Position numbers and translations under genes: made by a program
Origin: Demequina phytophila
Lineage (GTDB): Bacteria > Actinomycetota > Actinomycetes > Actinomycetales > Demequinaceae
DNA length: 64,000 bases
Direction: 5' to 3'
Assembly (NCBI RefSeq): GCF_000971135.1
Contig: NZ_BBLW01000008.1
Coordinates: forward strand, 1-64,000
Notes under the pieces: generated by a model
What the model saw: the letters and a program-made list of their open reading frames with translations, nothing else
Told to the model about the DNA's origin: nothing
Database searches by the model: none
Shown here: in pieces, positions 4,461-61,215 of the stretch
How positions within the stretch are numbered: the stretch's first letter is position 1
Layout: every line of letters starts with the position of its first letter

Positions 4461-4472
4461 CGCCTACAACGG

Positions 4473-4509
4473 ACGATGCGCCGGGAGCCTCGGGCTCCCG
4501 GCGCATCGT
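4473..4509. terminator. Bidirectional hairpin between MMPL gene and ldh
   Basis: A perfect 17-bp stem (4473-4489 with 4493-4509) around a 3-nt TCG loop, lying between two convergent genes. The outer part of each arm is the dispersed ACGATGCG motif in inverted orientation. No U-tract follows, so it may act as a U-less terminator or mRNA 3'-end stabiliser. Confidence 0.75.
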
Positions 4510-4528
4510 GCCGTGTGGCGCGGTGGGG

Positions 4529-5482
4529 TCAGCCGACCCCGAAGCGCTGAGCGGTCTCCTTGATGGAGCGGGCGGACGCCTCGAGCAGCGCCCTCTCCGA
4601 GTCGTCCATCGGGGTGGTGGCCTGGTGCTCGATGCCGTTGCGGCCGATCACGGCGGGCAGCGACATGCAGACCTCGCCGACGCCCGGGTAGTCGATGAGG
4701 GTCGAGACCGGCATGATGCGCCGCTGGTCGCCCAGCACCGCCTCGACGATGCGCGCGCCCGCGGCGCCGACGGCGTAGTTGGTCGCGCCCTTGCCCTCGA
4801 TGATCGTGTACGCGGAGCGCATCACGTCGTGGTGGATCTGCTCGCGCACCTCGGGCGTCATCACGATCTCGCCGTCGCGGCCGCGCCACTCCATGAGCGG
4901 CTGGCCGCCGATGGTCGCCGAGGACCAGAGCGCCACCTCGGAGTCGCCGTGCTCGCCCGCGATGTATGCGTGCACGTTGCCCACCGCGATGTCGCAGTAC
5001 TTCGCGACCTGGTGGCGCAGGCGCGACGTGTCGAGCGCGGTGCCGGAGCCGAACATGCGGCTCGGGTCCATGCCGGACTTCTTGATCGCGGCGTACGTCA
5101 CCACGTCGACGGGGTTGGTCACCAGGATGTAGATGGCGTCGGGCGCGACCTCGAGCAGGGGCGGCAGCACCTTGTCCATGAGGGAGATGGTCGCGCCGGC
5201 GAGGTCCATGCGGGTCTGGCCGGGCTGCTGCTTCGCGCCGGCGGTGATGACCACCACGTCGGAGTCCTCGACCACGCCGATGTCCGAGGAGCCGAGCACC
5301 GTCGCCTCGGGCATGAACTGGATGCCCTGCGCCAGGTCGAGGGCCTCCGCCTCGACCTTCGCGGTGTTGATGTCGTACAGCGCGACGGTTCGCGCGAATC
5401 CGCGCATCAGGCCTGCGTAGGCGAGGGTCGAGCCCACGGCGCCCGCGCCGACGATCGACACCTTCGAGGTCTTGTCCGACAT
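4529..5482 (-). CDS. ldh: L-lactate dehydrogenase
   Basis: NAD-dependent L-lactate dehydrogenase, 317 residues, reducing pyruvate to L-lactate in the cytoplasm. A Rossmann motif GAGAVGS lies at residues 12-18. D151 and H178 (in AGEHGDSE) form the proton relay, and R154 lies in LDTSRLR. The specificity loop TAGAKQQPGQTR carries Gln rather than the Arg typical of malate dehydrogenase, so lactate/pyruvate is the expected pair. An AGGAGG ribosome site precedes the ATG. It is transcribed alone, ending at the bidirectional hairpin. With pta, ackA and the phosphoketolase about 15-20 kb away it points to fermentative capacity. Confidence 0.96.
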   Translation of the reverse strand: MSDKTSKVSIVGAGAVGSTLAYAGLMRGFARTVALYDINTAKVEAEALDLAQGIQFMPEATVLGSSDIGVVEDSDVVVITAGAKQQPGQTRMDLAGATISLMDKVLPPLLEVAPDAIYILVTNPVDVVTYAAIKKSGMDPSRMFGSGTALDTSRLRHQVAKYCDIAVGNVHAYIAGEHGDSEVALWSSATIGGQPLMEWRGRDGEIVMTPEVREQIHHDVMRSAYTIIEGKGATNYAVGAAGARIVEAVLGDQRRIMPVSTLIDYPGVGEVCMSLPAVIGRNGIEHQATTPMDDSERALLEASARSIKETAQRFGVG

Positions 5483-5564
5483 GCCATCCTCCTGGGGTAA
5501 CGGTCCACGACGAGCCTAGCGGCGGGCGGCGGACCGCGTCGCGCGCGAGGGACGATGCGGCGGT

Positions 5565-6182
5565 TCAGCCCGCGTCGGACAGGCAGAAGGTCTCGGCTCC
5601 CGGCAGGCCGACGCCGGACGCGTGACCGCCCTCGCCGAGAGTCCAGTTGATGTCCGCCCACGCGATGACGTCGATGCAGCCGTCGCGGCCGATCCCCCAC
5701 CACGGGTAGATCTCCTGATGCATCTCCATGCCCTCGGCGGGGTCGAGGTTGCCCACGTCGAGGCGGATCGAGGAGTTGTCACATCCGAACGTGGTCTCGC
5801 CGAGCGTGTCGCCCATCGACGGCGGCCCGAAGTCCCACTGGCCGCAGGTCGCGTCGCCCACCACGATCCCCGCGTCCAGCGCCGAGAGCTCGCCGGTGCC
5901 CTCGCATCCGGTCCCGGCGTGCACGCTCGCGACCGTGTCGCCCACGAGCGACGTGTCCGTCCACACGCGCCAGGGCAGCGCCGCGATCACCGGGCGCCGC
6001 TCCGTTCCCTCGAGGGTGGTCGAGAAGCCGACGTCGACGCAATGGCCGGACTCCTCGTCCGTGAGCGTCCACTCGCGCTCGACGGGCACCGTGGTGGCGG
6101 AAGCCGCCGGCACCCACGGCACCGCCAGCGCCGCCACGACCGCCGCCACGGCGACCGCTCCCGCCCATGCCCACCCGCGCAT
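5565..6182 (-). CDS. Secreted protein of unknown function
   Basis: A 205-residue protein with an N-terminal signal: MRGWAWAGAV followed by an alanine/valine-rich core and an ASA-type cleavage site near residue 29. The mature part contains about six cysteines that could form disulfides, and many aromatic and acidic residues (YPWWGIGRDGC, WADINWTLGEGG). I recognise no family. It stands alone between ldh and the helicase gene. The ATG codon and second codon are embedded in a copy of the GGACGATGCG repeat (6178-6187 on this strand), and another copy lies just past the stop at 5551. No clear Shine-Dalgarno site is visible. Confidence 0.7.
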   Translation of the reverse strand: MRGWAWAGAVAVAAVVAALAVPWVPAASATTVPVEREWTLTDEESGHCVDVGFSTTLEGTERRPVIAALPWRVWTDTSLVGDTVASVHAGTGCEGTGELSALDAGIVVGDATCGQWDFGPPSMGDTLGETTFGCDNSSIRLDVGNLDPAEGMEMHQEIYPWWGIGRDGCIDVIAWADINWTLGEGGHASGVGLPGAETFCLSDAG

Positions 6183-6241
6183 CGTCCCCCCCCTCGAGGC
6201 TCGGCATCGACGCCTACCTGGGGGAACGCTAGCGCCGGGTG

Positions 6242-8809
6242 CTACAGCTTGTCGAGGGAGTTGAAGCGCAGGACCAGCCGCTTGACCTCGCCGCCGAAGT
6301 CGACCTTCACCACGGCGTTGCGACCCACGCCCTCGGTGCCGACCACCTTGCCCATGCCGTGCTTGTCATGGAGGACGCGCTCGCCCACCTCGAAACCGAT
6401 GTCGCCCGAGCCGACGCCCGGCGGGCTGGGAGGCACGCGGCGGCTCCTGACGGCGCCGGCGCGCGCGTACGTGTTGCCGTCCTCGCGATCCTGGTTGCCG
6501 CCGTGACCGCCCGAGCCGTAGCCCATGCCCGACCACGCGCCGCCACGCGACGTGCCGCGGTCGGACTGCGCGCGCAGCGAGGACATGGTCACCGCGGCAC
6601 GGGTCCACTCCATGAGCTCCGCGGGGATCTCCTCGACGAACCGGCTCGCGGTGAAGTACTGCGGGGCGCCCCAGCTCGAGCGGGCCTCGGCGCGCGTGAG
6701 GTAGAGGCGTTCGCGGGCGCGGGTGAGGCCCACGTAGGCGAGGCGACGCTCCTCCTCCATGTCCTTGGTGTCGCCCGACTCGATCGACCGCATGTGGGGG
6801 AACGTGCCGTCCTCCATGCCGGTGAGGAACACCACGGGGAACTCGAGGCCCTTGGCGGTGTGGAGCGTCATCATGGTGACCACGCCGCCGGTGCCGTCGG
6901 TGTCGGGGACCTGGTCCGCGTCCGCGACCAGCGCGACCTTCTCGAGGAAGTCCGCGAGCGTGCCCTCGGGGTTCTCCTCGGAGAACTCGCGGCCCACGGC
7001 CACGAGCTCCATGATGTTCTCGATCCGGCTCGCGTCCTGGGGGTCCTCGCTCGACCGCAGGGCGGCCAGCAGGCCGGTGCGGTCCGCGATGGCGTCGAGC
7101 ACACCCGCCGGGCCGTTGTCCGCCGCGAGCGCGCGCAGGTCGTCCATCAGCCGCACGAAGTCCGCGATGGCACGCTGCGAGCGGGCCTGGATCGGCGCAT
7201 CGTCCAGGCGGCGCAGCGCGGTGCCGAAGCTGGCCGCCTCGCCCGCGGCCACCAGGCCGCGCCGCACGCCCTCGACCGCCTCGACCGCGGTGTCACCGAT
7301 CCCGCGCTTGGGCTCGTTGATGATGCGGCGGGTCGCGACGTCGTCGTCCTCGTTCACCACGGCGGCGAGGTACGCGAGCATGTCCTTGATCTCCTTGCGC
7401 TCGTAGAAGCGCGTGCCGCCGACCACCTTGTAGGGGATCTCGGCGCGGATGAAGCGCTCCTCGACGGCGCGGGACTGCGCGTTGGCGCGATACATGATGG
7501 CGATGTCGGTGGGCGCGACGCCGTCCTCGTCCATGAGTCGCTTGATCTCGGTCGCGATGTACTGCGCCTCGCCCTGCTCGGTGTCCGCGGCGTAGCCCTT
7601 GATCTTCTCCCCCGCGCCCGAGTCGGTCCACAGGTTCTTGGGGCGGCGGTCCGCGTTGTTCTGGATGACCGTGTTGGCGGCGGTGAGGATGTTCTGCGTG
7701 GAGCGGTAGTTCTGCTCGAGGCGCACCAGGTGCGCGTTCGGGTAGTCCTTCTCGAACTCCATGATGTTGCGGATGGTGGCGCCGCGGAACGCGTAGATCG
7801 ACTGGTCCGCGTCACCCACGACGGTGAGCTCGCCGGCCGGCAGGCTCGCGTCGTCCGACGGGCCCACGAGCTCGCGCACCAGGACGTACTGGGCGTGGTT
7901 CGTGTCCTGGTACTCGTCGACCAGGATGTGGCGGAAGCGCTCGCGGTAGGCGCGCGCCACCTGGGGGTGGTGCTGCAGCAGCGCGACCGTCTTCACGATG
8001 ATGTCGTCGAAGTCCACCGCGTTCGCCGCCTCGAGGCGCCGCTGGTACAGCGGATAGGCGGTCGCGGCGGCGTGCTCGATGGAGAACTTGGACGCCATCG
8101 AGGCGCCCGCGAGCGCGACCTCGGGTTCGATCAACTCGTCCTTGAACTTGCCGATCCGCCCCAGGATCGCCTTGGGCGTGAACTTCTTGGGGTCGAGGTT
8201 CAGCTCCTTCATGACGAGCTTCATGAGGTTGACCTGGTCGGACGTGTCGTAGATCGAGAAGGTGCTGCTCAGGCCGGCGAGCTTGTGGTCCGCGCGCAGG
8301 ATCCGCACGCAGGCGCTGTGAAACGTCGCGACCCACATGCCGCGCGCCCCGGGGCCCACGAGCGCCTCGACGCGCTCGCGCATCTCCGCCGCGGCCTTGT
8401 TGGTGAAGGTGATCGCGAGGATCTGATGCGGGCGCGCGCGGTGGGTCTCGAGCAGGTGCGCGATGCGGTGCGTGAGCACGCGGGTCTTGCCCGACCCGGC
8501 GCCAGCCATGATGAGGAGCGCCTCGCCCTCGTGGGTCACGGCCTCCGCCTGCGGCGGGTTGAGCCCCGCCACCAGGGACGATGCGTCGCGCACCGGCCGG
8601 TTCGCGGCCGCGGCAGGCCGGTGGTGGCCCGAGAGGATGGGGGCCGGCGGGATCCACGCGTCCTCCGGCTCGGGCTCGTAGGCCTCGTCGGGCGCGGGCT
8701 CGAACCACTCCTCCGGCTCGGGCCCGACGGGCTCGGGAGCGGAGTTCGCGGGCGTGGCGGGCTGGGGCTCCGAGGGATCGGTGCCGTCGAGTTCGAAGAG
8801 CGCATCCAT
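6242..8809 (-). CDS. pcrA: ATP-dependent DNA helicase UvrD/PcrA
   Basis: SF1A 3'-5' DNA helicase, 855 residues, for nucleotide excision repair and replication-fork maintenance. Residues 1-78 are an acidic, Pro-rich linker extension not needed for the core. The helicase core follows: Q motif NPPQAEAV, Walker A at 102-109 (GAGSGKT), TFTNKAAAEMRERV, Walker B DEYQDTN, then GDADQSIYAFRGA and QNYRS. C-terminal motifs include TAKGLEFPVVFL and YVGLTRARE. The C-terminus has the PcrA Tudor-like region (VGERVLHDKHGMGKVV). A TAGACT box lies 9 nt before the ATG, implying a very short leader. The dispersed repeat occurs twice in the gene, once in the N-terminal linker (DASS) and once in a loop (LDDAP). Confidence 0.97.
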   Translation of the reverse strand: MDALFELDGTDPSEPQPATPANSAPEPVGPEPEEWFEPAPDEAYEPEPEDAWIPPAPILSGHHRPAAAANRPVRDASSLVAGLNPPQAEAVTHEGEALLIMAGAGSGKTRVLTHRIAHLLETHRARPHQILAITFTNKAAAEMRERVEALVGPGARGMWVATFHSACVRILRADHKLAGLSSTFSIYDTSDQVNLMKLVMKELNLDPKKFTPKAILGRIGKFKDELIEPEVALAGASMASKFSIEHAAATAYPLYQRRLEAANAVDFDDIIVKTVALLQHHPQVARAYRERFRHILVDEYQDTNHAQYVLVRELVGPSDDASLPAGELTVVGDADQSIYAFRGATIRNIMEFEKDYPNAHLVRLEQNYRSTQNILTAANTVIQNNADRRPKNLWTDSGAGEKIKGYAADTEQGEAQYIATEIKRLMDEDGVAPTDIAIMYRANAQSRAVEERFIRAEIPYKVVGGTRFYERKEIKDMLAYLAAVVNEDDDVATRRIINEPKRGIGDTAVEAVEGVRRGLVAAGEAASFGTALRRLDDAPIQARSQRAIADFVRLMDDLRALAADNGPAGVLDAIADRTGLLAALRSSEDPQDASRIENIMELVAVGREFSEENPEGTLADFLEKVALVADADQVPDTDGTGGVVTMMTLHTAKGLEFPVVFLTGMEDGTFPHMRSIESGDTKDMEEERRLAYVGLTRARERLYLTRAEARSSWGAPQYFTASRFVEEIPAELMEWTRAAVTMSSLRAQSDRGTSRGGAWSGMGYGSGGHGGNQDREDGNTYARAGAVRSRRVPPSPPGVGSGDIGFEVGERVLHDKHGMGKVVGTEGVGRNAVVKVDFGGEVKRLVLRFNSLDKL

Positions 8810-8856
8810 GACCCGGAAAGTCTAGGCGCTGCCTCCGACCCCCGCCCCCGCCCGAG

Positions 8857-8951
8857 TTCGCTGAGCACGGTCTGACGAGCGACACGCCGCCAGGTCTCGC
8901 CTGTGAACGTGTCCAGGCCCGCGTGTCGCGGCCCGGACCGTGCTGCGCGAA
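8857..8951. repeat. Inverted pair of GCGTGTCGC elements
   Basis: Copy C (8857-8887) is the reverse complement of a GCGTGTCGC...CAGACCGTGCTCAGCGAA element, and copy B (8921-8951) is the same element in direct orientation. Together they can fold into an imperfect hairpin of about 31-nt arms with a 33-nt loop. The pair fills the gap between the stop of the upstream minus-strand gene and the promoter of pcrA, so it may end the upstream transcript. A third copy is at 21-51. Confidence 0.55.
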
Positions 8952-8958
8952 GGTGGGC

Positions 8959-9774
8959 TCAGGCCTTCGGGGACGTGCCGAACGCCTCGAGCGCCTCGAG
9001 CGCCTCGTCCGCCGCGCGGCGCACGTCCGGGTCCGGATCGTCGTCGCACAGCCGGATCAGGTCACGCCACACGTTGCGGTCGCTCACGGAGCGGTGCATC
9101 TTCGCGAGCAGCTCGTGGCAGCGGGCGAACGTGACGCGCCCCTCGGGCACCTCGTCCGCCGCGAGGCAGCTGAGATGCGGCGCGAGCGCGACGAGCATCT
9201 CCAGGGCCTCGTCGACGCTGTCGGCCTCGCTCGAGGCCGCAGGCGCGACGACACCCGCGACCACCGCATCGGCGACGGGATCGCCCGACGGGACCGGCGC
9301 ATCGTCCCCCGACGCGCTCTCGGGCTCGAACACGAGGTCGGGCACCACCGCGAGCGGGAAGGCCATGGTCGGCAGGGACGGATCCGGGCTCGCGACGGGC
9401 GACGCGGCACGATCCGCGACCACCGGCACCTCGCCGGACTGGCGGGGCAGCTGGATCACCTCGTCGGGCTCGACACGCGGCGGCGCGGCGGGCGAGGCGG
9501 CCGCGAGGCGCATGGGCAGGCCCGCCGAGGTCTGCTCGAACGGGCCCACATGCTGAGGCACCGCGGCGAGCGGCGGCGGAGCGGGCGGCGAGGGATTCGC
9601 CTCCCGATCCTGCTGGCGCACGGACCACGGCCGCGCGTTCCAGTACTCATGCGCACGCGTGCGGCGCGCGCGCCGTCCCACGAACCCGTCGTCACCGGGC
9701 GCGACCGCGCCCGCTGGCGGCGCGGCGGTCCGCATCAGCCCCTCAGCCTCGTTGCCCCCCATGGGACCGACCAT
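8959..9774 (-). CDS. Unknown protein with low-complexity N-terminus and HEAT-like C-terminus
   Basis: About 271 residues and not assigned to a family. The first two thirds are rich in Pro and Ala with no predicted fold. The last 85 residues look helical and contain VWRDLIRLCDDDPDPDVRRAADEALEAL, which resembles a HEAT-repeat unit. No signal peptide or membrane segment is seen. The start is uncertain: ATG at 9774 (MVGPMGG) and 9762 (MGGNEAE) and TTG at 9798 are all possible. The dispersed repeat lies in the disordered part (GDDAPVP, 9298). It sits between the two helicase genes but shares no overlap with either. Confidence 0.6.
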   Translation of the reverse strand: MVGPMGGNEAEGLMRTAAPPAGAVAPGDDGFVGRRARRTRAHEYWNARPWSVRQQDREANPSPPAPPPLAAVPQHVGPFEQTSAGLPMRLAAASPAAPPRVEPDEVIQLPRQSGEVPVVADRAASPVASPDPSLPTMAFPLAVVPDLVFEPESASGDDAPVPSGDPVADAVVAGVVAPAASSEADSVDEALEMLVALAPHLSCLAADEVPEGRVTFARCHELLAKMHRSVSDRNVWRDLIRLCDDDPDPDVRRAADEALEALEAFGTSPKA

Positions 9775-11343: not shown

Positions 11344-11575
11344 TCAGGTGCCTTTCGGGCAGGGGACGATGCGCACGTCGCCCGGGCGGGCGAGCGCACC
11401 TTCTTTGGTGGCGAAGGCGGAGGTGTCCGCTCTCGTTCGCCGAAGAGAATTTCTACGAGCCGCGCAGCCGGGATCCCCGGGCGCTGGCGAGAAGTGGAAG
11501 CAATCCGCGACGCAGGAGGGCCGTCATCGACCCTGCAAGTACCCCCAAGGGTAGCAGGCGCGGCAGAATCGCCTC

Positions 11576-13945: not shown

Positions 13946-14099
13946 GGCACCACCTTCGCACAGCGGCCGGCCCTCGCTCGTCGGCCACCGGGACGATGCG
14001 CGGCGCACCCCAGGATCAGGGTGCGAATCAGGGTGCTCCCTCATAGCGGGCCCGCGCACCGCGGCGCGAGACTCGAGGAAGATCCACAAGGAGAGACCC

Positions 14100-15710: not shown

Positions 15711-16219
15711 GCGCCGAGATCCGTCCCCGCCGTGGCGCCGCCGAGCGCGTCACCGGCGTCATCTGGGGGGCCATCGTGGCCGCGGCCGGCGCGTTCACCA
15801 TCGCCGCGCTGTCCGGCTACGACGTGGACCTCGAGGTCCTCGCGATCGTCGCGCTGGTGGTGCTGGGCGGCTGGCTGCTCGCCTCCGCGCTCGCCGCCGC
15901 GTCCCGGCAGTCGCGCCAGGAGCGGGCCGCCGTCGCGAGCACCTCCCGCACCGCGGGGGACGATGCGCGGGTCGCCGCGGTCGACGAGGTCGGGGCCCCC
16001 GAGGGCTCCGCCCCGTCGGGTGGTTCCGCCGCCCCGCTCGCCCCCACCGCCGAGATGCCCGCTCCCCGCTCGCAGACGGACGGTCACACGTGGGCCGAGC
16101 CCGCGCAGCGGTGGGACGAGACCGCGGACACCGAGGTCATCGAGGCGGAGGCCACCGCACCGGTGTCCGACACCCCCGATCCCGAACCCGCCGACGGCGA
16201 GCGCAGGACGGATCAGTAG
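15707..16219 (+). CDS. Two-helix membrane protein, unknown function
   Basis: A 170-residue protein coupled to the PspC gene by an ATGA overlap. Two membrane helices lie at about residues 17-35 and 43-62. A long acidic, Pro-rich and probably disordered cytoplasmic tail follows. The tail contains one copy of the dispersed repeat, read as GDDARVAA (15959). I know no function. Position and topology suggest an accessory subunit of the PspC envelope-stress system. The stop is followed by the GCATGC palindrome cluster. Confidence 0.8.
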   Translation: MSAEIRPRRGAAERVTGVIWGAIVAAAGAFTIAALSGYDVDLEVLAIVALVVLGGWLLASALAAASRQSRQERAAVASTSRTAGDDARVAAVDEVGAPEGSAPSGGSAAPLAPTAEMPAPRSQTDGHTWAEPAQRWDETADTEVIEAEATAPVSDTPDPEPADGERRTDQ

Positions 16220-16223: not shown

Positions 16224-16290
16224 TCCTGCATGCAGGAGACATCTCTCCTGCATGCAGGACCGCATGCGGATCGGTCCTGCATGCAGGACC
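16224..16290. repeat. Cluster of three TCCTGCATGCAGGA palindromes
   Basis: Perfect 14-bp palindromes centred on GCATGC occur at 16224-16237, 16246-16259 and 16275-16288. The last extends to an 18-bp palindrome at 16273-16290. A shorter CGCATGCG lies at 16261-16268. Spacing is irregular, so this is not a CRISPR. The cluster lies between convergent genes, beside the guaA terminator. A related cluster is at 40275-40366. Confidence 0.85.
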
Positions 16291-18280: not shown

Positions 18281-19038
18281 GCGCCGTCCTCTCGGGTTGG
18301 GGGAACGCGTCCATTGTCCCGTATCCAGCGCACGGTGATGAACAGCGCGAACGCCCCGAACAGCCACCACTCGAGCGCGTACGCGGCGGACCGGAAGTTG
18401 AGCTCCGTGGTCGGCGGCAGCGGCTCGAGCGCGGTCCACGTCTCGGTGCCGTCGTAGGACACCAGCAGCGCGCTGTAGAGCGGCGCGGGCCAGGTCTGCG
18501 CGAGCTCCGAGGTGGCCATCGCGGAGGACCAGAAGGTGCCCTCGGCCGGGTCGGTCGTCGGGGTGGACGATGCGGCGGACGCCTCGGGCGCCCGGAGATA
18601 GCCCTCGATGGTCGCCTGGGTTCCCGGGGCATCGTCGACCCCCGCGACGTCGCCCTCGGGGCGCCAGCCGACGACGACGGCGAGGGTCGCGTCCTCGCCG
18701 GTGCCGGTCTGATCCGCGGGGACGGTGAGCGGGCGCACCAGCATCTCCGCGGCCGCGCCATCGACCTCGCGGCCGGTGACCACGGCGGCGTCCTCGTCCG
18801 CCCAGGTGCCCGTCACGGTGACCTGGCGGCCGTACGCGAGGCCTGCCGACTCCGCGGGCAGCAGCACCTCGGCGAGCGGGACCGCGGGTTCCGGCTGGAC
18901 GGTGCGACCGGTGGTGGACGCGCGGGTCCACTGCCACCAGCCGAGCGCGCCGCAGACGCCCACCGCGAGCAGCGCGATGAGCACGGCGGAGATCACGCGG
19001 CCCCAGAGGATGGCGCCGCGGTCGGTGGCCGCCGTCAC
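18277..19038 (-). CDS. SURF1-family membrane protein
   Basis: A 253-residue protein with one membrane helix near the N-terminus (about 12-37, ending [11 protein letters not shown]) and one near the C-terminus (about 222-240, [22 protein letters not shown]). The periplasmic domain between them has the SURF1 motifs [19 protein letters not shown] and the C-terminal [16 protein letters not shown]1 proteins assist cytochrome c oxidase assembly, but no oxidase genes are nearby. A loop in the middle contains the dispersed repeat, read as AASSTPTT (18566). GTGA overlaps couple it to both neighbours. Confidence 0.9.
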
Positions 19039-20397: not shown

Positions 20398-22476
20398 GTG
20401 GCACGAAGCATCTACATCGCATCGGCCGAAGGCGACACCGGCAAATCGACCATCGCCCTCGGCATCACCAATCTCCTCGCCAAGCAGGTGGGACGCGTCG
20501 GGATCTTCCGGCCCGTGGCCCGCGTCGCCGACGGCTCCGACTACGTGCTCGAGCTGCTCCTCGGGCACGACAGCATCGACCTGTCCTACGAGGAGGCGAT
20601 CGGAGTCACCTACGAGGACGTCCACGCCGACCCCGAGAAGGCGCTGTCGACCATCGTGTCCCGCTTCCACGAGGTGGAGCGCCGCTGCGACGCCGTCGTG
20701 ATCGTCGGCACCGACTACACGGACGTGTCCGCCGCCGCCGAGCTGGAGTTCAACGGTCGCATCGCCGCGAACCTGGGCGCCCCCGTGGTGCTCGTGGTGC
20801 ACGGCAGCGAGCGCACCCCCGCCGAGGTCGCGCAGGTGATCGATCAGGCGCGGCTCGAGCTCGCCGGGTCCCACGCGACCGTCGCCGGGATCTTCGTCAA
20901 CCGTGCCGAGGCCGAGGACGTCGACGCGATCGCCGCGCTGCTGCCCGAGGACCTTCGCCTGGGCGTCCTGCCCGAGGACCCGCTGCTCATCGCACCGTCG
21001 ATGAACCAGCTCGTGGAGGCCGTCGAGGGCACGCTCGTCACGGGCGACCCGGCGCTGCTCTCGCGCGAGACCCGCGGCATCATCGTGGGCGCCATGACCA
21101 CGTCGAACCTCCTCGACCGCCTCGAGGACGGCTCCGTGGTGATCGTGCCCGGCGACCGCTCGGACACCGTGCTCGCCCTGCTGGCCGCGCACGGCGCGGA
21201 GGGCTTCCCGTCGCTGTCGGGCGTGATCCTCACCGGCGGCCTCGAGCCCCGCTCCGCGGTCCGCCGGCTGGTCGAGGGCCTCGGCTCGCCGCTGCCCGTG
21301 GTCCGCACCGCGCTCGACACGTTCGAGACCGCGCGACGCTGCTCCACCACCCGCGGCCGCCTGTCGCGCGAGAGCCAGCTCAAGGTGGACACCGCGCTCG
21401 CGATGTTCGATCAGCGCGTCGACACCGAGCGCCTCACGGCGGCGCTCGATCTCGCCCGGACGGACGTCATCACGCCGCTCATGTTCGAGTACGGCCTGCT
21501 GGACCGCGCCCGCTCGCGCAAGCAGCGCATCGTCCTCCCGGAGGGCGGCGACGACCGCATCCTCCGCGCCGCCTCGTCCCTCCTCACCCGCGACGTGGTG
21601 GAGCTCATCATCCTCGGGAACGAGACCTCGATCCGTGCCCGCGCCGCGGAGCTGGGCCTCGACATCGAGGACGCGACCATCATCGACCCCACGGACCCCG
21701 AGTACGTCGAGCGCTTCGCGCACGACTACTACGAGATGCGCAAGCACAAGGGCGCGACGCTCGAGGCCGCGCGCGACCGCGTCCAGGACGTCAGCTACTT
21801 CGGCACCATGATGGTCGAGCTGGGCCTCGCGGACGGCATGGTGTCCGGCGCCGCCCACACCACCGCGCACACGATCCTGCCGTCGTTCCAGATCATCAAG
21901 ACCGTGCCCGGCGTCTCCGTGGTCTCGTCCGTTTTCCTCATGTGCCTCGCGGACCGCGTGCTGGTCTACGGCGACTGCGCCGTCAACCCGGACCCGACCG
22001 CCGAGCAGCTCGCGGACATCGCGATCTCCTCCGCGGACACCGCCGCGCAGTTCGGCGTCGAGCCGCGCATCGCGATGCTCTCCTACTCGACCGGCGAGTC
22101 CGGCACGGGCTCGGACGTCGACAAGGTGCGCGAGGCGACCCGCCTGGTGCAGGAGCGCCGCCCCGACCTGCTGGTCGACGGCCCGCTCCAGTACGACGCC
22201 GCCGTCGAGCCCTCGGTCGCGGCGTCGAAGGCGCCCGGCTCCCCCGTCGCGGGCCAGGCCACCGTCCTGGTGTTCCCCGACCTCAACACCGGCAACAACA
22301 CCTACAAGGCCGTGCAGCGCTCCGCGGGAGCGGTCGCCGTCGGCCCCGTCCTGCAGGGCCTGCGCAAGCCGGTCAACGACCTCTCCCGCGGTGCGCTCGT
22401 GCAGGACATCGTCAACACGGTCGCGATCACCGCGATCCAGGCCCAGAACCTCGACTCCCCGGAAGGCAACGCGTGA
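20398..22476 (+). CDS. pta: Phosphate acetyltransferase (long form)
   Basis: Interconverts acetyl-CoA and acetyl phosphate. At 692 residues it is the long form. The N-terminal part is a P-loop, dethiobiotin-synthetase-like domain (IYIASAEGDTGKSTIALGI). The middle is a DRTGG domain (TRGIIVGAMTTSNLLDRLEDGSVVIVPGDRSD). The catalytic PTA_PTB domain runs from KQRIVLPEGGDDRILRA to DLNTGNNTYKAVQRSAGA. The GTG start was chosen because it lies right before the conserved P-loop strand; no ribosome site is obvious. The stop overlaps the ackA start by 4 bp. A copy of the 10-mer at 21536 encodes the conserved RIVL and is probably coincidental. Confidence 0.96.
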   Translation: MARSIYIASAEGDTGKSTIALGITNLLAKQVGRVGIFRPVARVADGSDYVLELLLGHDSIDLSYEEAIGVTYEDVHADPEKALSTIVSRFHEVERRCDAVVIVGTDYTDVSAAAELEFNGRIAANLGAPVVLVVHGSERTPAEVAQVIDQARLELAGSHATVAGIFVNRAEAEDVDAIAALLPEDLRLGVLPEDPLLIAPSMNQLVEAVEGTLVTGDPALLSRETRGIIVGAMTTSNLLDRLEDGSVVIVPGDRSDTVLALLAAHGAEGFPSLSGVILTGGLEPRSAVRRLVEGLGSPLPVVRTALDTFETARRCSTTRGRLSRESQLKVDTALAMFDQRVDTERLTAALDLARTDVITPLMFEYGLLDRARSRKQRIVLPEGGDDRILRAASSLLTRDVVELIILGNETSIRARAAELGLDIEDATIIDPTDPEYVERFAHDYYEMRKHKGATLEAARDRVQDVSYFGTMMVELGLADGMVSGAAHTTAHTILPSFQIIKTVPGVSVVSSVFLMCLADRVLVYGDCAVNPDPTAEQLADIAISSADTAAQFGVEPRIAMLSYSTGESGTGSDVDKVREATRLVQERRPDLLVDGPLQYDAAVEPSVAASKAPGSPVAGQATVLVFPDLNTGNNTYKAVQRSAGAVAVGPVLQGLRKPVNDLSRGALVQDIVNTVAITAIQAQNLDSPEGNA

Positions 22477-23609: not shown

Positions 23610-23628
23610 CCAGCCACCGCATCGTCCC

Positions 23629-23718: not shown

Positions 23719-23875
23719 CGGCGTCTCACGCGCGAGAGATGCCTCGGATCCGCGCGGGGGGAGCGCCATTGTGTGGACAGACGCACGCACGGCGCGGAGG
23801 GACGATGCGCCGCCCCCCGGCCACGGCAGCGTTCACCGGGAATTCGCCTCCGAATCAGGACCTTCGCCGCGCCGT

Positions 23876-26405: not shown

Positions 26406-26444
26406 GGGGGACGATGCGCGGGCCGCCACCGCGCATCGTCCCCC
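26406..26444 (+). terminator. Terminator hairpin after xfp, built from an inverted repeat-motif pair
   Basis: A perfect 16-bp stem, arms 26406-26421 and 26429-26444 with a 7-nt loop, followed by TTT. Both arms are GGGGGACGATGCGCGG and its complement, so the whole terminator is made of two inverted copies of the dispersed motif. This is the best example in the window of the motif serving as a terminator. Confidence 0.8.
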
Positions 26445-28447: not shown

Positions 28448-28496
28448 GGACGATGCGCGGGTGACCTCGGTCCCACCGCCCGCCCGCGCATCGTCC
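28448..28496 (+). terminator. Long-loop hairpin from inverted repeat-motif pair
   Basis: 14-bp arms 28448-28461 and 28483-28496 (GGACGATGCGCGGG and complement) with a 21-nt loop, 25 nt after the stop of the Ig-repeat gene. The downstream arm directly abuts the TAGGGT box of the next gene, so terminator and promoter are fused into about 55 bp. Confidence 0.65.
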
Positions 28497-30701: not shown

Positions 30702-32522
<1,821 letters not shown>

Positions 32523-37990: not shown

Positions 37991-38084
37991 TCGTCCGGGC
38001 AGGACACGGCGGCGGGACGATGCGCGGGCCCGGCCTGTGGACAACCGTGCCGGCGCTGTCGGCGGTCCGTGCCAGGCTAGGAGC

Positions 38085-40274: not shown

Positions 40275-40366
40275 CCCGCATGCAGGACCACCTACCGGCC
40301 GGTCCTGCATGCGGGTCGAGAGCGGCCTGCATGCAGGATCACACCCCGATCTCGCACGCATGCAGG
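40275..40366. repeat. Cluster of GCATGC palindromes, second locus
   Basis: Two arms, CCCGCATGCAGGACC (40275-40289) and GGTCCTGCATGCGGG (40301-40315), form a perfect 15-bp inverted repeat with an 11-nt loop. CCTGCATGCAGG follows at 40326-40337 and another GCATGCAGG copy at 40358-40366. The core matches the cluster at 16224-16290. Again it lies between convergent genes. Confidence 0.8.
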
Positions 40367-43178: not shown

Positions 43179-43220
43179 GAGGCGCCGCATCGTCCAGGCG
43201 GACGATGCGGCGGGCGCCTC
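43179..43220 (+). terminator. Hairpin after whiB made of an inverted repeat-motif pair
   Basis: The stem GAGGCGCC plus GCATCGTCC pairs with GGACGATGC and GGCGCCTC, with a small bulge, around a 4-nt loop. Both arms contain the dispersed motif (43186 and 43201). It starts 8 nt after the whiB stop. Confidence 0.75.
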
Positions 43221-45241: not shown

Positions 45242-45898
45242 CTACTCACCCAGCGCGAGCGACACGGCGAGGGCCGCCATCACCACGGCGATCGCCCCGT
45301 CGAGCACCCGCCACGCGCCCGGCCGCGCCAGCACTCCGGACAGCAGGCGGGCCCCGTAGCCGAGCGCCGTGAACCACACGACGCTGCCCGTGATCGCGCC
45401 CGCCGCGAACAGCCATCGCGCGTCGTGCGTGGTCGCGACGGTGCCCAGCAGGACCACCGTGTCGAGGTAGACGTGCGGGTTGAGCCACGTGAGGGCGAGG
45501 CACGTGAGCGCGACCGTCCGGAGGGACGATGCGCGGGTCGCCGTCGCGACCCGGCCCGCCGCCCCGGGGGCCGGGGCGGCGGGGTCGACCGCGACATCGT
45601 CCGCCTCGAGGCGCTCGCCCTCGGGCCGGAGCGCGCGCCGGGCGGCGAGCGCCGCATAGCCCAGCAGGAACGCCGCGCCCGCCCAGCGCGCGGCGGTCAC
45701 CAGCCACGGCACCGCCTCGATCGCGGCGCCGACGCCGGCGACACCCGCGGCGATGAGCACGGCGTCCGAGACCGCGCAGATGAGCACCACGAGACCGACG
45801 TGCTCGCGCCGCAGGCCCTGGCGCAGCACGAACACGTTCTGCGCGCCGATCGCGACGATGAGCGACAGGCCGAGCCCGAGTCCGGCGAGGTAGGTCAT
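45242..45898 (-). CDS. lysE: LysE/ArgO-family amino-acid exporter
   Basis: A 218-residue membrane protein with six helices. Family motifs [19 protein letters not shown] near the N-terminus and [19 protein letters not shown] are both present. It exports lysine and/or arginine (L-form) by proton motive force. The central loop between helices three and four is long and low-complexity and encodes a dispersed-repeat copy (RASSLRTV, 45525). The ATG lies 6 nt after a TACCGT box on its strand, so it appears leaderless. It is divergent from its LysR regulator gene, the classic lysG-lysE arrangement. Confidence 0.93.
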
Positions 45899-46910: not shown

Positions 46911-48530
46911 TCAGGACGCGGCGCACGCGGGAGGAGCGCCCCGCAGCTCGACGGGCCAGTCGCCGCCCGGATCCTTGTCGCCCACCAGGACGTCCGCGAG
47001 CCCTCCGATGGCCGCCGTCGAGTCGCCGTACACGGCGACATGCGCGTCCGCGCGCGAGTCGAACAGCCCCCACGGATCACCGAGGGACACCACCACGTCC
47101 GCATCCGCCCGGAACTGACCCGAGGACAGCAGAGCGATGGCCGTGCCGCCGTCCCCGACCGTCACCCCCCGACGGCGGAGCGCGCCCTCGAGCGCTGCCA
47201 CCGCATCGTCCGGCCCCGCGACCACGATGGCCCGTCGCCCGACGAGCGGCGTGGAGCAGTCGTCGGTCGCGACGGTCGCGCCCGCGGCCGCGAGCGCGCG
47301 CGGATAGGCCGCGGTGGCCGGCTCGCCGCCCAGACCGTCCGACCAGCGCATCAGCAGGATGGACCGCGCGGCGGCCTCGTCGAGGCGGTCGCGCGAGAGG
47401 CGACCCTCCCGGACCGCGGCGACCACCGCGTCGACGGCCTCGCCGGCGTCCCCGGGCATGAGCAGCACGTCGGCGCCCGCGCGGAGCGCCTGGACCGCCG
47501 CCTGCCCCGGGGTCCGACCCTCGGCGACGGCGGCCATGTTGAGCGCGTCGGTCACCGCCACGCCCTCGAAACCGAGCTCGTCGCGCAGGTAGCGGTACGC
47601 CGACCGCTCGAGCGTCGCGGGCCCCTCACCCCACTCGGGTACGGCGATGTGCCCCATCATCACCGCGGGCGCACCCGCCTCGATCGCCTCCGCGAACGGC
47701 ACCAGGTCGGTCCGCGCGAGCCGTCGCAGCGGGCTCGACTGCACGGGAAGCCCCCGATGCGAGTCGACCGTCACGGAGCCGTGGCCGGGGAAGTGCTTGA
47801 TCACCGGCACCACGCCGCCGTCGACGAACCCGGCGACCGCTGCGACCACGGTCTCGCCCACGTTCGCGGGGTCCGAGCCCGCGCTGCGCGTGCGGATGAT
47901 CGGGTCCGCCGGACCGATCGTGACGTCGGCGACCGGCGCGTAGTCGACCGTGACGCCGAGCACCCGCATGTCCGCCGCGGACGACCGGTACGCGTCGGCG
48001 ACCGCGGCCTTGTCCGTCGCGGCGCCCGCGGCCATGAAGGCCGGCAGGCTCGGCACCGCGGCGGACAGGCGCGACACCCATCCGCCCTCCTCGTCGGCTG
48101 AGATCCACACCGGCCAGTCACGGTCGTCCGCGTGCTGGACGCGATCCGCCAGCGCCGCGACCGCGTCCGCGGACGGCGCCGCGCCACCCATGAGGATCAC
48201 TCCGCCGAGGTGGTGGTCGCGCACCAGCGCGGCGGCCGCCTGCGGGTCCGGCGAGTACACATCGGCCACCACCACCTGCCCGGCCACCCGCCGCAGCGGC
48301 AGGTCGCGCGCGGTCGCCAGCGCATCGTCCCACTGCTCGACCGTGGGACCCCACGCGAGGCTCTCGACCGCCGGCGTCGCGACCGCCGCGGGGCTCGCGG
48401 CGGGCGCCGGGACGGACGATGTGCCGGTCGCCGGCGTGGCCGAAGGGGAGGGCGTCGCCGTGTGGGGCGTGCAGGCGGCGAGCAGCGAGACCGCGAGCGC
48501 GGCCGCCGCGGCTCGGGCCGCGTGACGCAT
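46911..48530 (-). CDS. GH3 beta-N-acetylhexosaminidase-like lipoprotein
   Basis: A 539-residue lipoprotein. The signal peptide ends in lipobox LLAAC with Cys 20. The GH3 N-terminal domain has WISADEEGGWVSRL, the NagZ signature VIKHFPGHGSVTVDSHRGLP with the His-Asp dyad loop, and the nucleophile Asp in VAVTDALNMAAV. A GH3 C-terminal domain follows. NagZ-type enzymes remove GlcNAc from muropeptides or other glycans; the exported location here suggests work on the outer wall. The dispersed repeat appears twice in the coding sequence (GPDDAVAAL, WDDALATA). The ATG overlaps the tsaD stop by 1 nt. Confidence 0.92.
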   Translation of the reverse strand: MRHAARAAAAALAVSLLAACTPHTATPSPSATPATGTSSVPAPAASPAAVATPAVESLAWGPTVEQWDDALATARDLPLRRVAGQVVVADVYSPDPQAAAALVRDHHLGGVILMGGAAPSADAVAALADRVQHADDRDWPVWISADEEGGWVSRLSAAVPSLPAFMAAGAATDKAAVADAYRSSAADMRVLGVTVDYAPVADVTIGPADPIIRTRSAGSDPANVGETVVAAVAGFVDGGVVPVIKHFPGHGSVTVDSHRGLPVQSSPLRRLARTDLVPFAEAIEAGAPAVMMGHIAVPEWGEGPATLERSAYRYLRDELGFEGVAVTDALNMAAVAEGRTPGQAAVQALRAGADVLLMPGDAGEAVDAVVAAVREGRLSRDRLDEAAARSILLMRWSDGLGGEPATAAYPRALAAAGATVATDDCSTPLVGRRAIVVAGPDDAVAALEGALRRRGVTVGDGGTAIALLSSGQFRADADVVVSLGDPWGLFDSRADAHVAVYGDSTAAIGGLADVLVGDKDPGGDWPVELRGAPPACAAS

Positions 48531-52062: not shown

Positions 52063-52572
52063 CTAGCCTACGAGCGCGACGCCGGCCCAGCGGTCGCCGT
52101 GGGTGGTGAACGTCACGGTGCGGATGCCCTCGTCGGGGCGCTCCATGTCGACCTCGCCGCCCACCTCGCGCGCGATCACCACGTGCACGCGGTCCTGCGA
52201 CAGCTGCTCCGCCTTGTCCTCGCCCCACTCGATCACGGTGACCGAGGACTCGACCGTGGTGTCGAGGTCGAGGTCGTCGAGCTCGGCGAGCGAGTTGAGG
52301 CGGTACGCGTCCACGTGGATGAGCGCCGGCCCGCCCACCTCGGACGGGTGGGTGCGCGCGATGATGAAGGTCGGGCTCGCGACGGGACCGCGCACGCCGA
52401 GCGCCGCGCCCAGCCCCTGGGTGAAGGTCGTCTTGCCGGCACCCAGGTCGCCGCTGAGGATCACCACGTCGCCCGCGCGCAGCCGCGGGGCGAGCACGTC
52501 GCGCGCGAGGGCGCGCATGGCGTCGCCGTCGGCGACGGTGAAGGTGGACGATGCGGCGGTCGGCTCGGTCAT
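52063..52572 (-). CDS. tsaE: t6A synthesis ATPase TsaE
   Basis: A 169-residue ATPase that drives the TsaBDE cycle. Walker A GDLGAGKTTFTQGLG, switch VRGPVASPTFIIARTH, and IHVDAYRLNSLAELDDLDLD, IEWGEDK complete the family pattern. The first residues MTEPTAASSTFTVADG form a variable extension encoded partly by the dispersed repeat (52547). Its ATG overlaps the alr stop by 4 bp. Confidence 0.95.
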   Translation of the reverse strand: MTEPTAASSTFTVADGDAMRALARDVLAPRLRAGDVVILSGDLGAGKTTFTQGLGAALGVRGPVASPTFIIARTHPSEVGGPALIHVDAYRLNSLAELDDLDLDTTVESSVTVIEWGEDKAEQLSQDRVHVVIAREVGGEVDMERPDEGIRTVTFTTHGDRWAGVALVG

Positions 52573-53675
52573 GCGGGGTGCTTCTCCTTCAGGCCGCCGA
52601 AGCGGCAGACGATCTCGTAGTCGATGGTGCCCGCCGCCTCGGCCCACTCGCGAGCGGAGGGGCCGTCGGCGCCGATGAGCACCACCTCGTCGCCCGCGTG
52701 CTCGGGCGCGTCGGGGCCCAGGTCGAGCACCACCTGGTCCATGCACACCCGCCCTGCGATCACGTGGCGGCGGCCGCCGATCGCGACGGGGCCGCGACCG
52801 CTGCCGGCGGCCCGGAAGATCCCGTCCGAGTAGCCCGCGGTGACGAGCCCCAGCCGTGTGGCGCGCGGAGTCGTGTACTCGTGGCCGTAGCTGACGCCCT
52901 CCCCTGCCGGGACGTCCTTGACGAGCGCGAGCGAGGCGGTCACCCGCATCGCGGGCTCGAGCCCCCAGTCGCCGCCGTCCGCGTCGGGCACCGGAGGGAG
53001 CCCGTACACGGCGATGCCGGGCCTCACCAGGTCGAAGTGGAGGTCGGGTCGGGTGAGGGTGGCGGCGGAGTTGGCGAGGTGGCGCACCTCGAGCGCGATC
53101 CCGCGCGCCTCGATCGCGGCGACGCCGTCGCGGAACACCCCCGCCTGGCGGTCGATGGTGGGGTGGCCCGGCTGGTCCGCCCAGGCCAGGTGCGACCACG
53201 CGCCCACGATCACCACCGCATCGTCCGCCGCGAGCGCGGCGTCGAGCAGCGCGGGAAGGCCCTCGGGGCGCACGCCCTCGCGGGACAGCCCGGTGTCGAG
53301 GCACACGTGGACGCGGGCGACCTCGCCGGCCATGCGGGCGGCCGCGACGATCATGTCGAGGACCTCGAGCGAGGAGGCGCTGAGGTCGACGCCGCGGCGG
53401 ATGAGCAGCCGGAACGGCGCCTCGGGCCCGTAGAGCCAGCACAGCACGCGGCCGTCGTCGCCGGCCTCGCGCAGCGCGATGGCCTCGTCGGGCTGCGCGA
53501 CGCCGAGCCAGGTCGCGCCGCCGGCACGCGCGGCCGCGGCGGCGCCCACCAGCCCGTGGCCATAGGCGTCCGCCTTCACCACCGCCATCACCTGTGCGGT
53601 CCCCGCGTGCGCGGCGAGGCGCTCGATGTTGCGCGTGATCGCGCCGTGGTCGATCGTGATCCGCAGGCGCGACAT
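52569..53675 (-). CDS. alr: Alanine racemase
   Basis: PLP-dependent racemase for D-Ala in peptidoglycan; 368 residues. PLP lysine in VVKADAYGHG, followed by the TIM barrel LANSAATLTRPDLHFDLVRPGIAVYG and the C-terminal SYGHEYTTPRATRLGLVTAGYSDG with the catalytic Tyr. RHVIAGRVCMDQVVLDL is also standard. A dispersed-repeat copy encodes AADDAVVI (53217). The ATG overlaps the acpS stop by 1 nt (TGATG). Confidence 0.96.
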   Translation of the reverse strand: MSRLRITIDHGAITRNIERLAAHAGTAQVMAVVKADAYGHGLVGAAAAARAGGATWLGVAQPDEAIALREAGDDGRVLCWLYGPEAPFRLLIRRGVDLSASSLEVLDMIVAAARMAGEVARVHVCLDTGLSREGVRPEGLPALLDAALAADDAVVIVGAWSHLAWADQPGHPTIDRQAGVFRDGVAAIEARGIALEVRHLANSAATLTRPDLHFDLVRPGIAVYGLPPVPDADGGDWGLEPAMRVTASLALVKDVPAGEGVSYGHEYTTPRATRLGLVTAGYSDGIFRAAGSGRGPVAIGGRRHVIAGRVCMDQVVLDLGPDAPEHAGDEVVLIGADGPSAREWAEAAGTIDYEIVCRFGGLKEKHPA

Positions 53676-55945: not shown

Positions 55946-55986
55946 GCGCATCGTCCCCCTGCGCTCGGCCCCGCGGGACGATGCGC
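55946..55986. repeat. Inverted repeat-motif pair between glmS and coaA
   Basis: 12-bp arms GCGCATCGTCCC (55946-55957) and GGGACGATGCGC (55975-55986) with a 17-nt loop. This is between divergent genes, so it cannot be an ordinary terminator; the downstream arm overlaps an in-frame ATG of coaA. Confidence 0.8.
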
Positions 55987-56955: not shown

Positions 56956-57015
56956 CGCGTCGCGACGGACGATGCGCGGGTCGCGCCCGCGCGACGCGCC
57001 GGTCGGGCGAGGGGG

Positions 57016-57753: not shown

Positions 57754-57853
57754 GCGCTCAGTCTCCCAGGTGGGCGGGGGCGCCGCGATGGGGGGATCAC
57801 CTGATCGGTGCCGCCGTGGGGATGAGCGTCACGCCCGCTGCGGAGGCCGACTG

Positions 57854-59215: not shown

Positions 59216-59225
59216 GCGCGAGAGG

Positions 59226-59705
59226 TTAACGCTTCGAGTACTGCGGCGCGCGGCGGGCCTTCTTGAGACCGGCCTTCTTGCGCTCCACGATGCGGGCATC
59301 GCGGGTCAGGAAGCCGGCCTTCTTCAGCGCCGGGCGGTTGTTGTCCTCGTCGATCTCGTTGAGCGCACGGGACACACCCAGACGGAGCGCGCCGGCCTGA
59401 CCGGACGGGCCGCCACCCTGGATGCGGGCGTGCACGTCGAACTTGCCCTCGATGTCGAGGAGCGCGAACGGCGAGTTCACCAGCTGCTGGTGCACCTTGT
59501 TCGGGAAGTAGTCCTCGAGGGTGCGGCCGTTGATGACCCAGTTGCCGGTGCCGGGCACCAGGCGCACGCGGGCCACCGCCTCCTTGCGGCGGCCGAGGCC
59601 GGCGCCGGGGGCGAGGTTGGTCACACCCTTGCCGCGCTCGACCGCGGTCTCGGAGGTGTACTCGGTCGGGGTCTCGTTGTCGACCTCGGTCGTCACATCT
59701 GCCAC
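59226..59705 (-). CDS. rpsI: 30S ribosomal protein S9
   Basis: A 159-residue S9 with an acidic actinobacterial N-terminal extension (about 30 residues). Core: [49 protein letters not shown] and the C-terminal end [17 protein letters not shown] that reaches the P-site tRNA. The GTG start at 59705 was chosen because it lies 9 nt after AAGGA; the ATG at 59711 leaves only 3 nt. It follows rplM in the operon. Confidence 0.95.
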
Positions 59706-59733
59706 TTTCATCAATCCTTAACTGCTGCGGCGC

Positions 59734-60177
59734 TTACTGCGCGACCTGGGAGATCTCGAAGGGCTGCGGCTGCTGCGCGGCGTGGGGGTGCTCCGCACCC
59801 GCGTACACCTTGAGGTGCTTCAGCTGAGCAGCGCCGAGCTTGGTCTTGGGAAGCATGCCCTTGACCGCGTTCTCGATGACGCGGCGGGGGTTCTTCTCGA
59901 GGAGCTCGCCGATCGGGACGGCGGAGAGGCCGCCCGGGAAGCCCGAGTGGCGGTACACCATCTTGTCGGTGAGCTTGTTGCCGGAGATCGCGATCTTCTC
60001 GGCGTTGATGACGATGACGAAGTCACCGCCGTCGACGTGGGGCGCGAAGGTCGCCTTGTGCTTGCCGCGGAGCAGCGAAGCGGCCTGGGAGGCCAGACGA
60101 CCGAGGACCACGTCAGTAGCGTCGATGACGTACCAGTTCTTGGTCACGTCACCCGGCTTGGGAGAAAACGTACGCAC
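59734..60177 (-). CDS. rplM: 50S ribosomal protein L13
   Basis: A 147-residue L13: [52 protein letters not shown] and GMLPKTKLG. The GTG start is preceded by AAGG. The operon head has a leader of up to 180 nt downstream of truA (60178-60357), with a GGCGCCGAGGCGCC hairpin, where autoregulation could act. rpsI and glmM follow. Confidence 0.97.
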
Positions 60178-60357
60178 TGTGAAGCCTTACTTCTACTCGA
60201 TTCGGTGGACGGCGCCGAGGCGCCGCGAAGCAATTCGGTCGGCGGGTCCTGCGGCGGCGAGTGGGAGGCACCGTCCACGAGGGAACGCACAACGACGCAC
60301 CATCATACGCGCGTCACGCGGGAATCTCAATCCGGGCGCGGGCGCGGCGCGCGTCGG

Positions 60358-61215
60358 TCACGGCAGGGTGCGCCGCCCTCGGGTAGCCTCGGCGCGCGCG
60401 GCGAGCAGCGCATCGTCCGGATACGCCACCTCCTCCAGCGTGAGGCCGTGCGCGGGCGCCACCGCGATCGCCTGCGAGCGGCCCTCGGTGGCCGCCACCA
60501 TGGCGAGCCAGTCGAGGTCGCGACGCCCCTGCCCCACGCTCAGCAGCGCGCCCACCAGGGAGCGCACCATCGAGTGGCAGAACGCGTCCGCCCGGACCGT
60601 CGCGACCACCAGGCCCGTGTCGGGGCCCTCCGTCTCGCGCCGCCAGGAGAGCTCGGTGAGGTCGCGGATGGTGGTCGCGCCCTCGCGACCTCGGCAGAAC
60701 GCCGCGAAGTCGCGCAGGCCCAGGAGGGTGGACGATGCGCGGTTGAGGGCGTCGACATCGACCGGGCGGTCGACGGCCAGGACGTGGCGGCGGGTCAGGA
60801 CGTCGGGCACCCGGTCGGTGACCCGGTAGGCGTAGCGCCGCTGCGTCGCCGAGAAACGGGCGTCGAAGCCCGCCGGTGCGATCGAGACCGACCGGACCAC
60901 CGCATCGTCCGGGAGCACGCCGTTGAGGCGGGACAGCAGGCCCTCGGCGGGAGTGCGCTGCGCGCGTCCCGGCATCCGCGCCCACGCGGCCGTCTCGATG
61001 TCGACGTGGGCGACCTGGCCGCGCGCGTGGACCCCGGCATCGGTCCGGCCGGCGACGGTGACGCGGGGATACGCCTCCTGGTGGACGATCCGCGCGAGGG
61101 CGTCCTCGAGGACGCCCTGGACGGTCCGCAATCCGGGCTGCGTCGCCCAGCCGGAGAAGTCGGTGCCGTCGTAGGAAAGGTCGAGGCGGGCCCGCACGAT
61201 CTCTGAAGTGATCAT
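60358..61215 (-). CDS. truA: tRNA pseudouridine synthase A
   Basis: Forms pseudouridine at tRNA positions 38-40; 285 residues. [30 protein letters not shown], the catalytic Asp in [18 protein letters not shown], and [20 protein letters not shown] are typical. Three dispersed-repeat copies lie in the gene (60409, 60731, 60901), encoding [14 protein letters not shown] and PDDAVV, all in loops or the tail. It sits between rplQ and rplM. Confidence 0.96.

Follow-up and report, generated by a model that had tools for sequence, protein, structure and literature searches.

A candidate DNA uptake sequence with clade-specific dialects in the actinobacterial genus Demequina

A dispersed DNA word, GGACGATGCG, was encountered in a 64,000-nucleotide stretch of Demequina phytophila (contig NZ_BBLW01000008.1, positions 1 to 64,000, assembly GCF_000971135.1; hereafter the window), which forms the start of contig 5, in the numbering used here, of a 2.985 Mb draft genome. 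We consider it highly probable, judging from genome comparisons, that this word is a DNA uptake sequence which arose independently in Demequina. It also appears likely that the genus uses a code independent of those of Neisseriaceae and Pasteurellaceae, with at least three clade dialects, a type IV pilus reader in a single-membrane cell and a sexual-isolation barrier between clades. The testable genomic hallmarks of uptake sequences are present in the D. phytophila genome, and the depletion from foreign DNA points the right way; the rival explanations weighed below each account for only part of the pattern. A preliminary description of the window had proposed an actinobacterial uptake-type or other genome-wide recognition sequence, a reading that now draws support from dialects, from site conservation with turnover, from the absence of copies in 30 kb of island DNA and from a type IV pilus/Com gene set.

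Within the window, GGACGATGCG occurs 36 times (19 plus, 17 minus) between 4471 and 60910, exactly as the preliminary description had it, and its family provides the top over-represented 9-mers and 10-mers. About one 9-mer had been estimated from base composition; dinucleotide shuffles of the window give a mean of 0.92 (maximum 4) for the 10-mer. The whole genome holds 1101 copies, 548 forward and 553 reverse, and the word read backwards, taken as a control, occurs 7 times. With one copy per 1.8 kb, compared with one per 2.7 kb genome-wide, the window lies above the genome average. The anatomy of the copies was examined in 854 of the 2985 kb, partly picked around com and pil genes; this sample contains 335 copies, with a mean distance between copies of 2.4 kb (standard deviation 2.4 kb). 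Markov models of orders 0–4 predict 3.7–17 copies in it and order 5 predicts 34, an excess of about 20- to 90-fold over orders 0–4, while the 111–322 copies predicted by orders 6–8 are high because those orders count the motif itself. The count is therefore far from the Markov expectation and the enrichment is not confined to the window, the two outcomes that the preliminary description had set against its own reading.

The strands are balanced genome-wide, as noted above, and in 19 of 19 sampled stretches (binomial p of at least 0.29; the replication origin was not located). Other short, highly iterated chromosomal words behave differently: the HIP1 word of cyanobacteria is palindromic, and the FtsK-orienting polar sequences (KOPS) and Chi are strand-biased along the replichores. 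GGACGATGCG, whose reverse complement is CGCATCGTCC, shows neither the palindrome of HIP1 nor the polarity of KOPS and Chi. Such words, together with MatP/ParB-type sites, are possible models for an intracellular role, in which a nucleoid-organising, replication or repair protein would use the motif as its address. Copies all over the sampled genome speak for this role, as does an uptake machinery that fails to distinguish motif-rich from motif-poor species; nevertheless, we regard it as unlikely given the missing strand bias and palindrome, and because the island absence, the dialects and the inverted pairs would each need a separate explanation.

The sequence context of the copies was read from the 130 in the sample that are not wholly genic. 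G occupies position −1 in 85% of these, GG stands at +12/+13 (83% each) and +14 to +16 favor T (47%), C (62%) and G (58%), bearing out the extended consensus first drawn from the window. One-letter variants exceed expectation at the edges, as for the last G to C (89 vs 7 expected), the first G to C (38 vs 18) and A to C at position 3, which gives the other dialect (28 vs 13). Changes within CGATGC are near or below expectation, for example T to C (23 vs 29). Variants raised at the edges and not in CGATGC point to a recogniser and away from repeats in decay. ACGATGC is the probable recognition core, and a second block, GGnCG, lies downstream at a distance of a few bases.

Placement was assessed with our own codon-score gene finder rather than a standard annotator. 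The 335 sampled copies comprise 205 genic and 125 intergenic ones and 5 that cross gene edges, corresponding to 1.696 copies per kb of intergenic and 0.263 per kb of genic DNA (6.4-fold). The preliminary description was thus right that copies are denser in gaps (1.70 vs 0.26/kb) and overstated its case in calling them almost absent from genes, where 19 of the 36 window copies also lie. Genic density drops with lower G+C and with rising codon adaptation, falling to near zero (0.022 copies/kb) in the most codon-adapted genes; among five large motif-free gaps read by eye, three are conserved operons of the ribosomal-protein, carAB/pyr and mra/fts types and the remaining two contain genes of other kinds, ABC transporters among them. 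When synonymous codons are shuffled within each gene, 22 copies (maximum 28) remain of the 205, a ninefold difference, so coding bias is not their source. By gene strand, 107 genic copies are sense and 98 antisense; 98 of the former read x-Asp-Asp-Ala and 67 of the latter x-Ala-Ser-Ser, these two frames holding 165 of the 205. A peptide-level cause was rejected, since both gene strands carry copies and the density is higher in intergenic DNA.

Divergent, tandem and convergent gaps carry similar densities (1.56, 1.83 and 2.08 copies/kb), which indicates that the copies are neither promoters nor only terminators. Pairs less than 60 bases apart number 24 in the sample, against 7.7 expected, and 21 of them are inverted, in line with the frequent inverted pairing reported earlier for the window. 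The window has five inverted pairs, of which four were folded, all giving strong hairpins (z-scores −4.4 to −7.2). Since several of these hairpins lie just 3' of genes, a transcription terminator or other RNA-level element was considered. That 205 of 335 copies are genic, with nearly equal gene strands, and that the three gap types are alike make such an element very improbable as the primary function; in Neisseria, according to PMC3630211, termination is a possible secondary use of uptake sequences.

Dialects became apparent when 44 Demequina genomes, labeled G000 (D. phytophila) onward, were compared. GGACGATGCG, the A dialect, reaches 711–1564 copies in 15 of the 44, and in a set of 396 genomes from 109 genera of the order, 34 of the genomes being Demequina, the largest count outside Demequina, judged by eye, is 102. 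Three genomes from the two other genera of the family have GGMCGATGCG counts of 72, 50 and 10. Applied to pieces of low-count relatives, k-mer counting returned GGCCGATGCG and GGCCGATGC followed by C or T as top words in many and no clear top word in some. GGCCGATGCG (CG dialect) has 667–1203 copies in six genomes (G001, G002, G016, G027, G030 and G041); outside Demequina, the highest count noticed by eye across 248 genomes of the order belongs to a 9.4 Mb genome with 152 copies. GGCCGATGCH (CH dialect), counted within Demequina only, has 510–1349 copies in twelve genomes, including G011 and G031, where more than 660 copies of GGCCGATGCG are outnumbered by GGCCGATGCH. G018 holds two dialects (A 927, CG 483). 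The labels rest on cut-offs set after the counts were seen: at least 700 GGACGATGCG for A, at least 500 GGCCGATGCH for CH, and at least 600 GGCCGATGCG with fewer GGCCGATGCH for CG. The GGCCGATGCH background in non-CH genomes (52–307, except G013 at 344) is higher because H allows three letters. By these cut-offs 33 of 44 genomes are rich in one of the three dialects and eleven fall below, three of them intermediate (G012, G013 and G022, the last with GGACGATGCC as its local top motif word). The dialects share CGATGC as well as the downstream GG.CG.

Dialects and species phylogeny agree. A six-protein tree with 42 Demequina rows (G035 and G036 lacking data), built by a quick search with distant outgroups, requires 6 changes for the four labels, compared with 22.7 when these are shuffled. 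A single branch sets the CG group apart, and A and CH take three changes each. The A genomes fall in one clade, inside which sit four low species (G004, G022, G026 and G043); G012, G013, G033, G034, G037 and G039 lie near the base, as does the CH genome G040, on a long branch of unsure position. Two further words were noticed in motif-poor genomes. The palindrome ATCGCGAT, counted with each site on both strands, is over-represented in G004 (34 vs 7.5) and G012 (18 vs 5), and in the window (22 vs 4.4 expected). GCCGACGC is over-represented in G034 (88 vs 32 in 100 kb), perhaps as a still more diverged dialect, perhaps through composition.

Conservation of individual sites was followed in one 40 kb region, to which each close relative contributes 9 to 12 aligned sites. 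In five relatives of 82–87% nucleotide identity, 39 of 53 aligned copies are exactly kept, as against 500 of 2534 (20%) control 10-mers up to about 160 bases away. The corresponding figures are 9/31 and 203/1507 for four A-dialect relatives at about 81% identity, and 1/16 and 71/779 for four farther A-dialect species; the conservation counts are not independent, as the same few sites recur among relatives. Farther relatives lose sites yet have similar copy numbers, which indicates that positions turn over while the tag stays. Most orthologous sites show gap-free alignment (83 of 100 cells in A-dialect genomes). This last result bears on an origin from remnants of a small mobile repeat, resembling repetitive extragenic palindromic (REP) elements or miniature inverted-repeat transposable elements (MITEs). 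High copy number and inverted pairs would suit such a repeat, but the shared sequence is 10 bases plus weak flanks, core variants are not raised as decay would require, and the sites are largely gap-free and kept in close relatives, leaving this origin exceedingly improbable.

Putative foreign DNA was located through an integrase search with five matches. The two strongest, which we take to be the chromosomal XerC/XerD, and their surroundings were excluded, and two islands were read. Their 18 kb and 12 kb of DNA between or beside phage-type integrases, at 65–66% G+C, hold 0 copies, where 11 are expected at the genome rate; three 3.5 kb loci around the island integrases hold a single copy, near the end of one. 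By eye, the islands carry insertion-sequence transposases and an apparent type I restriction-modification cluster (G000 C11:478445-484307), the latter in a low-G+C island with zero motif copies. The presence of this cluster, and of GATGC, the site of SfaNI-type enzymes, in the motif core, could be taken to suggest a restriction-modification or defence mark that protects self DNA. Under-representation of GATGC was looked for and not seen (3197 vs 3043 expected), and we know of no restriction or defence mark in which a fully specified 10-mer is enriched 20- to 90-fold; we give this proposal very little credence.

Genes for uptake machinery are present in the genome. Between aroE and aroC/aroK lies a pilus cluster read as pilB-pilT-pilC-pilin-minor pilins-large protein-pilD-pilM-pilN-pilO. 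PilB, PilT, PilC, PilD, PilM and the pilins have Pfam matches (two minor pilins just below the cut-off), the 602-residue large protein has no Pfam match, and PilN and PilO, outside the Pfam scan, were named by position alone. ComEA (SLBB plus helix-hairpin-helix, by Pfam) adjoins ComEC, whose best relatives in named genomes are from D. gelatinilytica and D. sediminis (63% identity), and DprA is on another contig. Three further T2SSE-family ATPases besides the PilB/PilT-type cluster are presumed to be Tad-like. All 47 family genomes have PilB; in Demequina, ComEC was found in 43 of 44, DprA in 44 of 44 and ComEA in 42 of 42 examined. Some of the genes are split (ComEC in G011, G022 and G037, PilB in G011 and G022), possibly through sequencing errors. 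Separately, PilB is 99% identical between G000 (C6:86982-88640) and G023 (C14:164171-165832), whose comEC regions share 87% DNA identity where aligned; a recent exchange of the pilus locus between these species is possible.

The type IV pilus cluster has two alternative minor-pilin modules at the same place in different Demequina species, of 150, 201 and 602 residues or of about 600, 215 and 500 residues (G000 copy at contig 6, 80514-83910). Assignment by eye succeeded in 15 of 21 genomes, the other six being unassigned because the gene finder called too little: module X is found in G004, G006, G014, G026, G028, G030, G031 and G037, and module Y in G000, G001, G002, G016, G018, G020 and G034. 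One minor pilin gave no credible relative among Protein Data Bank (PDB) sequences. Its structural model (predicted local distance difference test score 81.5, from six sequences) has the long N-terminal helix plus strands of a pilin, and a fold search found nothing in the PDB at E ≤ 0.001, the pseudopilin 2ret_C ranking 23rd at E 0.89.

Several results weigh against an uptake sequence. The preliminary description had suggested comparing motif presence with com gene content, and this comparison did not discriminate, the com genes being near-universal: the eleven motif-poor species all have DprA and PilB, ten of them have ComEC (not found in the incomplete G036) and all ten examined have ComEA, so that neither ComEC, PilB, DprA nor ComEA separates motif-rich from motif-poor species. 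ComEC, ComEA, DprA and the neighboring PilB-PilT pair are retained even by G004, G026 and G043, motif-poor species that sit inside the A clade. Near-universal equipment permits but does not prove a role in uptake, and it leaves the eleven tag-poor species unexplained; these may have lost the receptor or the preference for the tag. The minor-pilin module was rejected as the dialect determinant, since A-dialect as well as C-dialect species are found with X and with Y. Third-codon identity to relatives was used to look for local homogenisation, a possible trace of strong conversion near copies; none was seen, identity being lower close to them (0.66–0.71 within 200 bp of copies and 0.77–0.81 beyond 2 kb). 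The copies do sit in variable places. Part of the island depletion may reflect composition, as island G+C is lower; at the genic rate for similar G+C (0.11/kb) about 3 copies would be expected. Finally, placement in relatives is less distinctive, with intergenic enrichment of 1.6- to 2.4-fold pooled (the CH pool including G005, where gene calling did not work) and with 4 of 13 close pairs inverted (0 of 6 in A relatives). Most of these samples come from around comEC, and the one close pair that D. phytophila has there is direct too.

The individual window copies are collected in Table 1. Scans of the window with Rfam (gathering threshold) and for tRNAs gave no matches. Apart from GGACGATGCG, the window contains the palindrome CCTGCATGCAGG in two three-copy clusters (16225-16287 and 40275-40337) of mirrored spacing (22/29 vs 29/22), with 6 matches at up to one mismatch against 0.14 expected; by their arrangement the clusters look like paired operator arrays of one regulator.

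Table 1. Exact matches to GGACGATGCG in the window, with gene context from our codon-score gene calls.
Position	Strand	Context
4471..4480	+	intergenic
5550..5559	+	intergenic
6178..6187	-	overlaps gene edge
7196..7205	-	in gene, reads DDA
8576..8585	+	in gene, reads ASS
9298..9307	-	in gene, reads DDA
11364..11373	+	intergenic
13991..14000	+	intergenic
15958..15967	+	in gene, reads DDA
18565..18574	+	in gene, reads ASS
21526..21535	-	in gene, another reading frame
23618..23627	-	intergenic
23800..23809	+	intergenic
26409..26418	+	left arm, inverted pair just 3' of gene; 17-bp hairpin stem
26432..26441	-	right arm of pair with 26409..26418
28448..28457	+	left arm, inverted pair just 3' of gene; hairpin
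28487..28496	-	right arm of pair with 28448..28457
29918..29927	-	in gene, reads DDA
30188..30197	+	in gene, reads ASS
32246..32255	+	in gene, reads DDA; left arm of inverted pair (not folded)
32285..32294	-	in gene, reads ASS; right arm of pair with 32246..32255
35565..35574	-	in gene near C-terminus, reads DDA
38015..38024	+	intergenic
43186..43195	-	left arm, inverted pair between convergent genes; hairpin
43200..43209	+	right arm of pair with 43186..43195
45524..45533	+	in gene, reads ASS
47202..47211	-	in gene, reads DDA
48321..48330	-	in gene, reads DDA
52546..52555	+	in gene near N-terminus, reads ASS
53217..53226	-	in gene, reads DDA
55947..55956	-	left arm, inverted pair between divergent genes; hairpin
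55976..55985	+	right arm of pair with 55947..55956; overlaps gene start
56967..56976	+	intergenic
60409..60418	-	in gene 60358-61215, reads DDA
60730..60739	+	in gene 60358-61215, reads ASS
60901..60910	-	in gene 60358-61215, reads DDA

We infer competence in these bacteria, with the tag being read as DNA is taken up. Present on both strands, the tag would give the competence apparatus a preference for DNA of its own clade: some part of the type IV pilus machine exposed at the surface would bind it on free DNA, the retraction ATPase PilT would pull the tagged DNA in, ComEA/ComEC would carry one strand over the membrane, and DprA, whose gene is present, with an assumed RecA would recombine the incoming strand. 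Tagged fragments being taken up more, recombination would spread and restore tags wherever protein or regulatory sequence tolerates them, and drift of the receptor would give rise to clade dialects.

Comparison with known systems reveals both parallels and differences. Demequina belongs to an actinobacterial class without an outer membrane, a difference from Neisseriaceae. The uptake signal sequence (USS) of Pasteurellaceae carries a second downstream block of A/T tracts, where Demequina has GGnCG, and the motif sequences are unrelated. As described in PMC3630211, the USS is likewise a dispersed word, a 9-mer in two versions by lineage, and its receptor is only predicted, according to PMC12616744. 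For Haemophilus influenzae, sequencing of DNA recovered after uptake has given a genome-wide map (PMC7811141). The DNA uptake sequence (DUS) of Neisseriaceae is read by the minor pilin ComP and exists in eight dialects that follow the family tree around a short core (PMC3630211). Demequina resembles it in the 10-mer scale, the very many copies, the permissive positions and the inverted pairs (PMC3630211 and PMC6370729), and in tree-following dialects around a short core and a type IV pilus competence machine; it differs in an unrelated sequence, in being a 72% G+C actinobacterium and in that no ComP was recognized. Micrococcus luteus offers a transforming actinobacterium with ComEA/ComEC and a filament, though it uses Flp/Tad pili where Demequina has a PilB/PilT-type cluster, and the portions of PMC6370729 available on its transformation mention no uptake sequence.

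A literature search, whose coverage lacked most subscription papers and all bioRxiv preprints, found no published description of uptake sequences in Actinobacteria or Demequina; matches to the first nine letters of GGACGATGCG were, among the matches listed, unrelated by title. PMC3630211 describes these sequences as unique to Neisseria and Pasteurellaceae, so that it could not be asked whether they are a quirk of lineage or a repeatable outcome of biased transformation. If the reading of GGACGATGCG as an uptake sequence is true, Demequina would provide a third, independent case, in Gram-positive bacteria, complete with dialects and related species that lack the tag. Tests would then become possible of the requirements of a receptor, of molecular drive against selection as the force that maintains the tags, and of a part for dialects in isolating species.

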